This document shows, one piece after another, positions 10,155 through 16,966 of a stretch of 50,003 nt of DNA. Position numbers and translations under genes: made by a program. Position 1 is the stretch's first letter, and the number at the start of each line of letters is the position of its first letter. The DNA is from Clostridia bacterium (GTDB taxonomy: Bacteria > Bacillota > Clostridia > DUPQ01). Below the pieces are notes generated by a model. It had not been told where the DNA came from. It ran no database searches and was given only the letters and a program-made list of their open reading frames with translations. Location: assembly GCA_016929655.1 (NCBI GenBank), contig JAFGIJ010000030.1, positions 1 to 50,003 of the forward strand, written 5' to 3'.

Positions 10155-10988
10155 ATGAGATATATGAAAAAAACAATAAGAATAATATTAATATTAGCAG
10201 TTGCAGTCAGCTTTGTAATAATAAGTATATATATATACAACTTGCTACAAAACAAGAGAACAACGGATGAGATACAGGCGATATATGACAATATGCAACA
10301 AAGTAGCATAAATGCGGAACCAAAGCCCTCAGAAACACCTGATGCAAAACCAGAAGTTGAAATTTCTGAGACTCCTTCAAAAGAGGAAGTGGAAACAATT
10401 CCGGATAATATAACCGGTTATGTCATTGATTTAAGAAAAAACCCTAACAGTGAACTTCTTGCAATAAACAGTGATTTTGTAGGATGGGTCAAGGTTGAGG
10501 GAACAAATGTAGATTATCCTGTTGTAAAACACAGTGACAATGATTTCTATCTTAATCGGGATTTTTACAAGGAAGATAATATTGCCGGAAGTATTTATAT
10601 GGATTACAGGAACTTTGGTAATAAACTCGACGGCAATATAGTTATTTACGGACATAATATGAAAAACGGTACGATGTTCAACAGTCTGAACAATTACAAG
10701 GATGAAGGGTTTTTCAATGACAATATGATAATAACTTTCAGTAATTTATATGAAACATTTGAATATGAAATATTTTCTGTGTACTGGGTAAGTGCAGATG
10801 ATTATAAACTGGAGTTTGATTTTAAAAGTAATGATATAAATGAATATTACAATTTTTTGAAAAGTGAGTCGATTTTCCAAAGGGAATCAGTGATAACTGA
10901 TGTCAATCAAATCATAACCCTGGCTACCTGTTCGTATGAGGTAGATAACGGTAGACTGATGGTTCATGGCGTTTTAATTAATAATTAA
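10155..10988 (+). CDS. Class B-like sortase
   Basis: This membrane transpeptidase cleaves a sorting motif and joins the surface protein to the peptidoglycan. The 277-residue protein has an N-terminal membrane anchor (residues 9-31), a Pro/Glu-rich linker, then the sortase domain. Catalytic His167 (IYGHNMKNG), Cys259 (TLATCSYE) and Arg267 (NGRLMVHG) are all present. The sequence GWVKVEGTNVDYPVVK and the insert before the Cys favour class B. Class B sortases of some clostridia accept PxTG-type motifs, which fits the neighbouring IPKTG protein. Two starts are possible: ATG 10155, 4 bases after AGGA, or ATG 10164, 13 bases after it; neither spacing is ideal. It is divergent from the fasciclin gene and upstream of, but not co-transcribed with, the Tad locus. 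Confidence 0.88.
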   Translation: MRYMKKTIRIILILAVAVSFVIISIYIYNLLQNKRTTDEIQAIYDNMQQSSINAEPKPSETPDAKPEVEISETPSKEEVETIPDNITGYVIDLRKNPNSELLAINSDFVGWVKVEGTNVDYPVVKHSDNDFYLNRDFYKEDNIAGSIYMDYRNFGNKLDGNIVIYGHNMKNGTMFNSLNNYKDEGFFNDNMIITFSNLYETFEYEIFSVYWVSADDYKLEFDFKSNDINEYYNFLKSESIFQRESVITDVNQIITLATCSYEVDNGRLMVHGVLINN

Positions 10989-11007
10989 CAAAAAATGTAA
11001 AAACATC

Positions 11008-11036
11008 TTGTCAAATAAGGTAAATTATGTTATTTT
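11008..11036 (+). promoter_or_regulatory. Promoter of the Tad pilus operon
   Basis: TTGTCA (11008-11013), a 17-base spacer and TATTTT (11031-11036) with an extended TGT before it make a good sigma-A promoter. Transcription should begin near 11043. The leader is then only about 24 bases and the next gene has to start close to 11067. Confidence 0.7.
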
Positions 11037-11066
11037 ATAAATGACAATAAATACCAGTGAGGCAAG

Positions 11067-12500
11067 ATTATCAAAAAGCTAAATGAAAGATATCGAATAA
11101 TAAAGGAGATTTCCAGCCATAAAAACCGGGTTGTTTATCTAGCCTATGACGAAATAACAGGTGCAGAAAGAATAATCAAGGAAATAAAGGAAAACGGCAG
11201 AAGCAATGCCAATGATTATACAGCACTAAGGAAACTCCATCACCCGGGTATTCCGGAAATCTATGATGCATTTGAAACAGGATCTTCTCTTTTCATAGTC
11301 ATGGAATTCATTGAAGGAAAAAGCCTGCCGGAGATTTTGCAATCAGAAAGTCATGAAGAGTTCAGGATAGCAGGTTATATACTGGACATTTTGGATGTAC
11401 TGGTATCAATGCACTCACTTAAACCGCATCCTGTAATCCACGGTGATATCAAGCCTGAAAATATACTGATTTGTGATAACAGGGCAATCCTGATTGATTT
11501 TGGTTCAATTTCAGGAACAAGTGGGTCTTCGGGTTTTTGTGCACCTGAAAAACTTGCAGGCTTTGATTCAACAATACAATCAGACATTTATTCAATTGGT
11601 CAGGTTATGCATTACTGTCTCACCGGCAGAACAAGAAAGCTTTTTGACAGCAACAAAAGAGAAATAAAAAAGGGATTTAATTCAATAATTGAAAGGGCAG
11701 TCAGGAAGCTTCCATCAGACAGATATGTTTCAGCCATGGAAATGGCCAATGACCTGAAACGATGGACCAAAGGTGTTGGTTCTGATAGCCAAAAGGAAAA
11801 CAGCACAACCCTTTTGTGTATACCCGGTAATCCCCACCTGTGCTGTGAAATGGCTTATGTAACCTCATGTTATGCAAATACCCTTCTTGCTGACCTTGAT
11901 TTGCTTTCTCCGGGAATTGATATGCTGATGGGTCTTCGAAAATTAAATGGTTCATCCCATGAATATGGATTTTCAGGAGATATTGAAGCAGGTTATGGTA
12001 TCATCCCGGGAAAGAAGTCAGGAAGACCTGACATTTTGCCATGCTTTTCAAGCTATGATGCCTATGAGGAAACACAGAATGGAATTATAAAAAGAATAGC
12101 AAAAATCTATAGTGATATTTATGATGTGATTATTATTTGCTGCAGTGCTTTTCCATATGACAGCACTTTGGTTGAAGCTCTTTTTACATGTGACCATATT
12201 TTATTCTCAGTCGAGAAAGGACCTTTGGACATCAGAAAGCTGAATTCCATGGCACTGCACTTTTCCAGAAGACAGGGTGTTAACATCAAACGTTTAAACC
12301 TGATAGGGTATGGATTTTCTGAAAAAAGCATTGATCCTGCTATTGCCGGAATATCAGCGGAAGTCAGGTGGCTGGGTCAGTTGCCGCATATAAGCCAAAG
12401 GGTAACTCAGTCTATGAACGGAATGGCGTATCTTCCAGAGAAAAAAAGCAGAGGCTTCAAAGCAATTACAAGAATCCTGAAGAAACTGGAGGTGATCTGA
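11067..12500 (+). CDS. Hanks-type Ser/Thr kinase fused to a TadZ/CpaE-like domain, probable AUU start
   Basis: The track begins at 11301, inside the kinase, but the frame is open back to a TGA at 11058. It encodes a full N-lobe, MIKKLNERYRIIKEISSHKNRVVYLAYDE, with no ATG, GTG or TTG in between. The only well-placed initiator is ATT at 11067, a few bases after GTGAGG. Kinase motifs: Lys38 (RIIKEI), HGDIKPEN with Asp127 (an HGD, not HRD, loop), DFG at 144, APE at 159-161; the glycine loop is weak. The kinase ends near residue 232. Residues from about 247 to 477 look like a MinD-family TadZ/CpaE domain with a degenerate P-loop (CIPGNPHLCC) but a kept DLDLLSPGID segment, and end in QLPHISQRVTQSMNG. 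It overlaps cpaF by one base. A role in pilus placement controlled by phosphorylation is inferred. Confidence 0.82.
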   Translation: MIKKLNERYRIIKEISSHKNRVVYLAYDEITGAERIIKEIKENGRSNANDYTALRKLHHPGIPEIYDAFETGSSLFIVMEFIEGKSLPEILQSESHEEFRIAGYILDILDVLVSMHSLKPHPVIHGDIKPENILICDNRAILIDFGSISGTSGSSGFCAPEKLAGFDSTIQSDIYSIGQVMHYCLTGRTRKLFDSNKREIKKGFNSIIERAVRKLPSDRYVSAMEMANDLKRWTKGVGSDSQKENSTTLLCIPGNPHLCCEMAYVTSCYANTLLADLDLLSPGIDMLMGLRKLNGSSHEYGFSGDIEAGYGIIPGKKSGRPDILPCFSSYDAYEETQNGIIKRIAKIYSDIYDVIIICCSAFPYDSTLVEALFTCDHILFSVEKGPLDIRKLNSMALHFSRRQGVNIKRLNLIGYGFSEKSIDPAIAGISAEVRWLGQLPHISQRVTQSMNGMAYLPEKKSRGFKAITRILKKLEVI

Positions 12501-13684
12501 TGCCTTTGGTTAAAACACTGTTTGAACCCATTGGAAAGACAGCTGAAAAAGACAGAAAAAACGGAATATCAGTGGAAAGTCTGGCAATGAAGATAACCGG
12601 TGAGATTATTGAAGATAAACCGTATTTTGTCATGGACTCCTTTAGGGAAAAAGACGACAGGGATGGGCTTCGAAGGGAAGTCATAAGAATCCTTGACAGG
12701 GATAATCTGTATTTTTCTGTCAACAGAGATGAACTTATCAGGGGCATATTTGATTTTATGTTCGGGTATGGAGCATTGCAGAAGTATATTGATGATGAAG
12801 ATATAAGTGACATTGATGGAACCAGATACAATGAATTTACAATCAAGAAACTGGGGGAAAGATACAGAATAGATGTTGATTTCGGTGACGAAAGGGCATT
12901 TGAAACATACTGCCGGCTGATAGCTGTAAGAAGCGGTGGCTTTTTGAATGAGGATGATACCCATTGCAGGACTGCAGATATTAAAAGCAAGCTTAGGATA
13001 AATGTTTCAATTCCGCCTCGAAATGTATCAGGACCTGCTATCAGTATAAGAAAACACAGACAAAATGCCTATACCCTTGAAAACCTGAAAGAGCTTTGCA
13101 TGCTGGATGATGAAGCTTTCAGGATTATACAAAAAATGACTCACAGTAACTCGAGTATCCTTTTCTGTGGGAAGGGAGCTGCCGGAAAAACGACACTTCT
13201 AAGGGCTTTCCTTAATTCACTTCCGGAACTCGAAAGGGTTCTGGTCGTTGAATCCGATGCTGAAATCTATCCAAAGAAAGCATTTTGTATAGAACAAAGA
13301 ACCAAGAGACCTGAAGAAGGAGGCAGACCTGTTTCACTAGAAGGACTGGTCAGAGACGGGCTTACAATGTCCCTGGATACCTACTGTGTCGGAGAGTTGG
13401 TAGGAGAAGAGGCATACTCATTCATCAAGGCATCATGCACAGGTCACAGGATGCTTGGAACAATCCACTCAAAAAATGCCTTCGAAGCCATTGGAAGGAT
13501 TGTTTCCCTTGCCGCCGGTGCCGGTTCAAATGACTCAGTTGAAAGGCTGATGGATTCTGCGGCTTCCGGAATAGACTGCGTCATCTATCTAAAGGAATTC
13601 AAAGTCATTGAAATCATATTGGTTAAAGGCATGGAAAATGGTGAACCCGGTTATGAAAGTATTTATAGAAAGGATACAGAATGA
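12500..13684 (+). CDS. cpaF: Tad pilus assembly ATPase CpaF/TadA
   Basis: This secretion ATPase powers assembly of Flp pili at the inner face of the membrane. The ATG at 12500 overlaps the previous TGA (TGATG) and follows GGAGGTGAT, so the tracked start at 12368 is rejected. The 394-residue protein has the CpaF N-terminal region, INVSIPPRNVSGPAISIRKHR, a Walker A GKGAAGKTT at about residues 224-232, the acidic box around VVESDAEIYP, and the His-box-like region CTGHRMLGTIHSKNAFEAIGRI. The Walker A has Ala-Ala where Gly/Ser is more usual, but Lys and Thr are kept. It is co-transcribed with tadB, tadC, flp and cpaB. Confidence 0.9.
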   Translation: MPLVKTLFEPIGKTAEKDRKNGISVESLAMKITGEIIEDKPYFVMDSFREKDDRDGLRREVIRILDRDNLYFSVNRDELIRGIFDFMFGYGALQKYIDDEDISDIDGTRYNEFTIKKLGERYRIDVDFGDERAFETYCRLIAVRSGGFLNEDDTHCRTADIKSKLRINVSIPPRNVSGPAISIRKHRQNAYTLENLKELCMLDDEAFRIIQKMTHSNSSILFCGKGAAGKTTLLRAFLNSLPELERVLVVESDAEIYPKKAFCIEQRTKRPEEGGRPVSLEGLVRDGLTMSLDTYCVGELVGEEAYSFIKASCTGHRMLGTIHSKNAFEAIGRIVSLAAGAGSNDSVERLMDSAASGIDCVIYLKEFKVIEIILVKGMENGEPGYESIYRKDTE

Positions 13685-14478
13685 TTTATTTTACTGCAAA
13701 TCTGCTGATTATATCTATCTTGTACATATTGATGACTAACACTGATATTTTGCATAAGATAACTGGCTATAAAAGGAGTCTCAGGGTAGCTTTTGATAAA
13801 AGAATGGTTCTTTCTACCAGTGCCGTTTCGTTCGTATTATCTTTCATCATATTCAGTATAATTCTTGGTAGTACCGCTGCTGCGCTTTCCATTTCAATAA
13901 TACCTGCCTTTTGTGTATATGGTGCATTTGACATGATTTCAAGGGCAAGGCAAAGCCGGGAAGCAGGTCAGATCACATATTTTCTTATGACCATGTCCAA
14001 ATGGAGTGCTGTAAGGAATGACATGGTTTTCTGTCTGAAAAAAACAACAGAGGCCGGAATTGAAAAGCCTGTTGGGGTTCTGCTTGAAAGGACACTTGGA
14101 AGAATAAACGGAGGAATGGATATAATCAGGGCATTTTCTCTGCTTGAAGAAGAAAGCAGCAGTGAAGACCTCAGGTATCTTAGCAGGAGTATAAGATTTG
14201 CGGCAGAAAAAGGTGGAAATCTGCAAAAACTGTTCACCGGAATGGAACAGCAGTATTTCAGAATCGATGAAGAAACATTCAAAAGAAAGATTTCAACAGT
14301 CAGGGACAGAGGAGCAGTTTACCTGACCGTAATAATAGTTATTGCAACAGCATTTTGGTTTTTGCTCAGCAATCCTACTGCAGGAGAATTCTATCTCTAT
14401 ACATCATTCGGGAACTATCTGCTGATGGCATTTTCAGCAGTATTTGCAACGGCACTGATATTTATGACGGGTAGGTGA
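13681..14478 (+). CDS. tadB: TadB-like pilus assembly membrane protein (T2SSF family)
   Basis: The 265-residue protein has two membrane segments near the N terminus (about residues 4-20 and 45-75), a cytoplasmic helical domain with the T2SSF pattern (LLERTLGRINGGMDIIRAFSLLEEE, YLSRSIRFAAEKGGNLQKLFTGME) and two further membrane segments at the C terminus. TadB and TadC form the membrane platform that works with the CpaF ATPase. It overlaps cpaF by 4 bases (ATGA) and lies 3 bases before tadC. The sequence is divergent, so the assignment rests on domain pattern and position in the operon. Confidence 0.8.
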   Translation: MIYFTANLLIISILYILMTNTDILHKITGYKRSLRVAFDKRMVLSTSAVSFVLSFIIFSIILGSTAAALSISIIPAFCVYGAFDMISRARQSREAGQITYFLMTMSKWSAVRNDMVFCLKKTTEAGIEKPVGVLLERTLGRINGGMDIIRAFSLLEEESSSEDLRYLSRSIRFAAEKGGNLQKLFTGMEQQYFRIDEETFKRKISTVRDRGAVYLTVIIVIATAFWFLLSNPTAGEFYLYTSFGNYLLMAFSAVFATALIFMTGR

Positions 14479-15867: not shown

Positions 15868-16325
15868 TCCGGTGGAACAAGGGTTTTGGTGTAGGGCAGA
15901 GCATTGTTTTACTGGGTTTTCTGGTATTCCTGCTTATTCCTCTGTTTACATTCATGACAGAAAAAATCTATATCAAGTATGTTGTACATATAATGAATGA
16001 AGCGGCTGATTTGGCAGCAATGACAGCTTACCAGGAAATAAACGCAGAAATCCTTGCCTCTGGCAACATAGGATTTTCCTCAGCTGATTGTATTGAAGAC
16101 AGGATTATTCATTCATTGGAAGAAAACAAAATAGAGGGAATCAAAATAAACAAGTGCGATGTAGCCATACATGCAGCAGGAGAATGCTGCAGGCTTGGGA
16201 ATACATCACAGTATGACTTCATACATCTGCTTCTAAAAGTTACGGTAAAACGTATACACGACAGCAGCAGAGTGCAGTTCTATATACACAGGGATGTGGA
16301 GATACCCTGTATAAGGATGGAATGA
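15864..16325 (+). CDS. TadE/TadG-like minor pilin-type protein
   Basis: A 153-residue protein with a single N-terminal membrane helix (SIVLLGFLVFLLIPLFTFM) followed by a short basic region and a predicted extracellular domain (VHIMNEAADLAAMTAYQEINAE). The pattern of a helix followed by an 'A.DLAA..A' region is typical of TadE/TadG-type proteins that contribute minor components to Tad pili. It overlaps both neighbours by 4 bases. Three cysteines (in SADCIED, NKCDVAI and GECCRLG) could form disulfides outside the cell. Family assignment is tentative. Confidence 0.6.
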   Translation: MIRWNKGFGVGQSIVLLGFLVFLLIPLFTFMTEKIYIKYVVHIMNEAADLAAMTAYQEINAEILASGNIGFSSADCIEDRIIHSLEENKIEGIKINKCDVAIHAAGECCRLGNTSQYDFIHLLLKVTVKRIHDSSRVQFYIHRDVEIPCIRME

Positions 16326-16966
16326 TGAGAAAGACAATTTATATAGTGCTTGCAGTTCTTTTAGCTGCAGGACTGACAGTTATTCAGGCAGTTATTGCAA
16401 AGTCTGCTTCGAGAAGCAACGAAACAATAGTATATGTTGCAGCGGATGATTATAAAAAAGGGACAGTCCTTGAAGACTCACACTTGAACGAACTTGTGAT
16501 TTATACGAAAAATGCAGATATTCATACATCGGTTGAAAGCAAGCAGGACCTTATTGGTATGACACTTTCGGGAGATATTGTCAAAGATGAGATAATTACA
16601 TCGGCGATAATATATGACAGTAAATTGCAGGCGGAGGATGAAAGGTATGTTGCCCTCAAGGTGGATGGAAGCAATTTCAATGCCGGCTTTCTGACAGCTG
16701 GTGATATTGTTGATATTTTCTTTCTTCCGGATTTTGAAAAACTGGAAAATTATCAGATTGTGTGGTTGAATGAAAATCTTGTGGGTTATTCTCGATTTAT
16801 AAAAGGTAAAACACCGGGGATACTTATAAATGATCTGCGCATAAACCATATTAGTAAAACAGCTGGAGACCAGGCTGAATATGTAAGCGTATGTGTCCCG
16901 GGAGAGGTTGATGAAGTGATAGCTTTTCTTGAACAAATCAGTGAATATGAGTTCATCGGGCATTGA
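16322..16966 (+). CDS. cpaB: CpaB/RcpC-like SAF-domain pilus assembly protein
   Basis: The 214-residue protein begins with a membrane anchor (TIYIVLAVLLAAGLTVIQAVI) and then a SAF-type domain: VYVAADDYKKGTVLEDSHLNELVIYTK, DLIGMTLSGDIVKDEIITSAIIY and YVALKVDGSNFNAGFLTAGDIVDIFFLP. This order is that of CpaB/RcpC, an outside-facing Tad assembly protein thought to contact peptidoglycan or the pilus channel. Two adjacent ATGs (16322 and 16325) overlap the previous stop; either may be used. It is the last gene of the operon. No terminator is evident before the trmN6 promoter. Confidence 0.82.
   Translation: MMRKTIYIVLAVLLAAGLTVIQAVIAKSASRSNETIVYVAADDYKKGTVLEDSHLNELVIYTKNADIHTSVESKQDLIGMTLSGDIVKDEIITSAIIYDSKLQAEDERYVALKVDGSNFNAGFLTAGDIVDIFFLPDFEKLENYQIVWLNENLVGYSRFIKGKTPGILINDLRINHISKTAGDQAEYVSVCVPGEVDEVIAFLEQISEYEFIGH

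Follow-up and report, generated by a model that had tools for sequence, protein, structure and literature searches.

Comparative support for a non-canonical AUH start codon in the kinase gene of a clostridial Tad pilus operon

Comparison with related genomes strongly supports a non-NTG start of the type sensitive to initiation factor 3 (IF3), at an AUH codon (AUU, AUC or AUA), for the kinase gene that stands first in the Tad (Flp) pilus operon of a Clostridia bacterium. The AUH codon, the Shine–Dalgarno (SD) sequence ahead of it and the promoter are conserved across two genera. The non-canonical start proposed in a preliminary description of this DNA is thereby upheld, but the codon is most probably the AUC at 11070 instead of the AUU at 11067, so that the earlier call was most likely off by one. 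An AUH start is a device best known from infC, the gene for IF3; to our knowledge few natural, conserved AUU, AUC or AUA starts are on record, and gene finders ignore them. The gene lies in a window of 50,003 nt (the whole stretch analysed) from a draft genome of 229 contigs, and the relatives named below are MAGs of uncultured Clostridia.

The kinase frame and its operon

The features to which the text refers are as follows.

11008–11036, + strand: sigma-70-type promoter, TTGTCA-17-TATTTT, with TG ahead of the second hexamer; predicted transcript start near 11043; kept in the six-genome alignment
11058–11060, + strand: in-frame TGA closing the kinase frame upstream and leaving GGC AAG ATT ATC before the conserved domain
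11059–11062, + strand: Shine–Dalgarno core GAGG
11067–11069, + strand: ATT, the start proposed earlier; less likely, unconserved, SD gap of 4 nt
11070–11072, + strand: ATC, the likeliest start codon; SD gap of 7 nt; an Ile codon in all six genomes
11070–12500, + strand: kinase/MinD-like fusion gene, 476 codons plus stop; predicted protein beginning MKKLNERYRIIKEIS
11127–11684, + strand: Pfam Pkinase match (E 9e-26), residues 21–206 counted from the ATT; the N-lobe precedes the first ATG
11301–11303, + strand: first in-frame ATG, the start picked by gene finders; inside the kinase domain and too late
12488–12497, + strand: full-strength SD GGAGGTGATC of the next gene, within the 3' end of the kinase gene
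12500–13684, + strand: TadA-type ATPase (T2SSE), its ATG overlapping the kinase stop (TGATG)
13681–14478, + strand: TadB/C-type membrane protein (T2SSF)
16322–16966, + strand: CpaB-like pilus assembly protein, below the NCBIfam cut-off

The kinase frame is bounded by the TGA at 11058–11060 and a terminal TGA at 12498–12500, and the codons after the first of these read GGC AAG ATT ATC AAA AAG CTA AAT GAA AGA TAT. Reading of the frame bears out the earlier statement that ATG, GTG and TTG (here NTG) are absent between TGA 11058 and ATG 11301; the latter, the first in-frame NTG, lies 78 codons past ATT 11067 and 77 past ATC 11070. The mechanical ORF call for the kinase is 11301..12500, shortened just as had been foreseen for gene finders, and the call for the kinase of the relative L049 is likewise shortened.

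That a complete kinase N-lobe is encoded ahead of ATG 11301, also claimed in the preliminary description, is confirmed by the Pfam match and by the family profile, which aligns from its position 2 to the kinase domains of S. aureus and pneumococcal Stk1/StkP. The window's protein has the features of a Hanks-type Ser/Thr kinase (PknB/Stk1-like), namely the N-lobe, a non-RD catalytic loop (HGDIKPEN) and DFG. All 11 genomes examined for the family have a match. In the three closest genomes (G003, G007 and G009), the first 70 codons show purifying selection on the N-lobe (dN 0.03–0.09, dS 0.41–1.31, dN/dS approximately 0.07–0.10), with changes concentrated in third codon positions (for example 9, 4 and 27 at positions 1, 2 and 3 between G009 and G003). 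The stretch ahead of the first NTG is coding. Translation from ATG 11301, giving a truncated kinase, would make use of the first canonical in-frame start, but it would remove an N-lobe that is conserved, under purifying selection and homologous to the beginning of the Stk1/StkP domain, and the first NTG falls at differing codons in the three genomes that have no earlier one (77, 60 and 70 codons downstream of the aligned start). Conservation, selection and homology of the N-lobe led us to reject this internal start, to which we give practically no chance.

The C-terminal half (window 11790–12500) gave Foldseek matches to FleN/MinD, from a low-confidence AlphaFold model (5 sequences, mean pLDDT 58, poorest in the kinase N-lobe) that serves as a hint for a MinD-like fold of this half only. 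The P-loop (deviant Walker A) was not recognisable at its expected place in the C-terminal half, which reads IPGNPHLC. On this weak model, the protein would be a kinase carrying a C-terminal domain of degenerate CpaE-like type that resembles MinD/FleN by fold. The order kinase–tadA is kept at the loci L047, L048 and L049, where the genes upstream are unrelated; the TadA-type ATPase adjoins the kinase in the window and at all three of these loci, and a T2SSF gene follows it in the window, L047 and L049. In the window a sortase gene (10155–10988) lies directly upstream of the kinase gene on the same strand, a place taken by other genes in L047–L049.

Conservation of the start region among relatives

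Six genomes of the genera g1 and g2 with an intact kinase start, including that of the window (G000), were aligned on a conserved xRY. The start regions read GTGAGGCAAGATT-ATC (G000), GCTGAGGTGCAGACA-ATC (G001), TTGAGAGGTGATATT-ATT (G009), TTGTGAGGTGATACC-ATA (G003), TTGTGAGGTGATATT-ATC (G007) and AAAAAGGTGATGAAA-ATA (G005). The codon equivalent to 11070 is therefore ATH in six of six genomes (ATC in G000, G001 and G007, ATT in G009, ATA in G003 and G005), and this conserved Ile codon stands, in every case, five codons ahead of xRY and 7–8 nt past the SD core. At 11067 the equivalent codons are ATT in G000, G007 and G009, ACA in G001, ACC in G003 and AAA in G005. GAGG is separated from ATC 11070 by 7 nt and from ATT 11067, described earlier as suitably distant from GTGAGG (11057–11062), by only 4 nt; among the window's ATG genes with a strong SD, gaps of 6–8 nt prevail. 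We place the start at ATC 11070 because that codon is ATH in all six genomes, 11067 is unconserved and the SD gap is 7 rather than 4 nt. A start at AUU 11067 would add one residue and leave the mechanism otherwise identical, and AUU too is known as a non-canonical start; given the short gap and the three genomes in which another codon stands at this position, among them G003, which also lacks any NTG, we consider it quite improbable.

The strength with which the individual genomes speak for an AUH start differs. G000, G003 and G007 have no NTG in the usable stretch, and G003 and G007 belong to another genus than the window; the first NTG after the aligned start comes at 60 codons in G003 and at 70 in G007, with none earlier. 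An ATA start is forced in G003, since the codons after its stop (GGT GAT ACC ATA AAA) offer nothing else, ATA being the sole near-AUG codon at a workable distance. The remaining genomes have in-frame upstream NTGs, namely a GTG in G001 and GTG-ATG in G005, which overlap the SD itself, and a TTG and an ATG in G009, the ATG sitting in the promoter spacer, ahead of the predicted transcript start. A non-NTG start is thus forced in only three of the six genomes (G000, G003 and G007), and the Ile in G001, G005 and G009 could be conserved for the sake of the protein.

If the A5 run at 11073–11077 were altered by a single base, the GTG at 11057 would join the kinase frame (GTG AGG CAA GAT TAT CAA AAG CTA), and a canonical start might thus be hidden by a programmed frameshift at this run or by an error of sequencing or assembly. 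Both eventualities, named in the preliminary description as what would overturn its proposal, are contradicted by G003 and G007: the kinase frame of each is, independently, devoid of an NTG start, and in both the equivalent GTG meets a stop at once (GTG AGG TGA); moreover, no SD lies ahead of GTG 11057. We regard this reading as extremely improbable.

The promoter reported earlier was located at 11008–11036 and aligns with the TTGnnA-17-TAAnnT of the relatives, and the predicted leader is 27 nt long. The SD core of the window is short (GAGG) compared with the 8-nt GAGGTGAT found in genus g2 (G003, G007 and G009); G001 has GAGGTG and G005 AGGTGAT. The leader gave no structure (fold z-score +1.2) and no Rfam match, and 16S rRNA for confirmation of the anti-SD was not found in the 11 genomes, all of them incomplete drafts of many contigs. 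Both genera keep an AT-rich element (window 10986–11036) above the kinase promoter, with AACAAAAAATGTAAAAACATCTTG followed by the -35, and copies of ATGACAATAAAT appear close to the promoter at positions that are shifted; these sequences are possibly an operator.

Kinase homologues beyond genera g1 and g2 have NTG starts available; the version in genus g3 is diverged and starts at ATG. In these g3 kinases (L008, L009 and L010) the catalytic loop is HGNIHHDN, HGSIHHDN or HGNIHDEN, DYG replaces DFG and Ser stands at the position aligned with the beta-3 lysine; judged from these residues, they are probably a pseudokinase version.

Comparison with infC and with the genome at large

The infC gene, located in eight of the 11 family genomes, offers an internal control. 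Read from its SD, its predicted start is ATC in G000, G001 and G002 and ATA in G004, G006, G007, G008 and G010; by genus, ATC is found in g1 and ATA in g2 and g3, after GGAGG. The start region in G000 reads GGAGGTGAAAAAT-ATC-GCT. Since an AUH codon at SD-appropriate distance, AUC or AUA, also appears to open infC in this family, the same ribosomes presumably already handle an AUC start. The likeness ends at regulation: infC is autoregulated, whereas the kinase is no translation factor and hence has no evident feedback loop. The infC loci of the family are L133 (that of G000), L130 and L132, and L126–L129 and L131; in some genomes an ATG or GTG overlaps the SD, and annotation would choose that codon.

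We also considered, and rejected, the possibility that this genome uses AUH starts generally, no such class being visible: the arrangement GAGGTG-N4-6-ATH is not enriched genome-wide (72 occurrences against 70 in a reversed control), and among 30 such loci that were read there were three candidates, none of them convincing.

Proposed mechanism and precedents

Our working model, which we consider likely, is that the kinase is translated from AUC 11070, 7 nt past GAGG on a short leader, that this start is disfavoured by IF3 and gives low output, and that tadA need not be subject to the same limit. Initiator tRNA-fMet would pair with AUC 11070 with a third-position mismatch, and IF3 would be expected to reject most of the resulting initiation complexes; kinase output would then be low and would track IF3 activity. 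Having its own full SD and ATG, tadA would allow the pilus machinery to escape the limit set on the kinase, and, read most simply, the arrangement would keep kinase amounts low compared with that machinery. What we infer is the use of AUC for initiation, a low yield, sensitivity to IF3 and this purpose, a substoichiometric kinase.

IF3 selects against initiation at any codon but AUG, GUG and UUG (PMC4611024), and infC, cited earlier as the known example of such starts, has several documented companions. In S. aureus, ccpN (AUA) and cvfC1 (AUU), both with strong SDs, yield in poor medium approximately 10% of what AUG gives, and the ccpN start up to 30% in rich medium (PMC13009471). Like the kinase, these are Gram-positive genes with conserved AUH starts (the non-canonical start of ccpN is conserved in B. 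subtilis, the AUU of cvfC1 in Staphylococci); one is a proven regulator, and cvfC1 is first in its operon, as is the kinase. Their strong SD resembles that of the genus g2 kinase genes, that of the window being shorter. They encode unrelated proteins, and their starts were tested by Ribo-Ret and reporters, whereas that of the kinase is predicted from sequence. The AUU start of E. coli pcnB, an unrelated gene in a different organism, restricts its expression (Binns and Masters 2002, as cited in PMC13009471), a limit comparable to the one proposed here. The GUC start of Streptomyces sigR is repressed by IF3, and SigR is held below its anti-sigma factor (PMC5472188); as proposed for the kinase, a non-canonical start subject to IF3 holds a regulatory gene at a lower level than its partner, although sigR differs in its codon, which is not AUH, and in having an anti-sigma factor as the partner.

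It is tempting to speculate that assembly of the Tad pilus is coupled to the condition of the translation apparatus, with IF3 level or growth rate setting the amount of kinase through the conserved AUH start, and pilus control and infC sharing one translational switch; we consider this conceivable but unlikely.

The phenomenon itself is already known, and the kinase gene adds a new, comparatively well-supported candidate for an AUH start in a gene other than infC. Standard ORF calling loses approximately 77 residues of its N-lobe, and comparison of relatives can decide which codon serves; here the call moves from 11067 to the next codon. The list of AUH starts appears to gain a signalling kinase from a pilus operon, found from its sequence and supported across two genera, and if its start is indeed AUH, the kinase should stay scarce.
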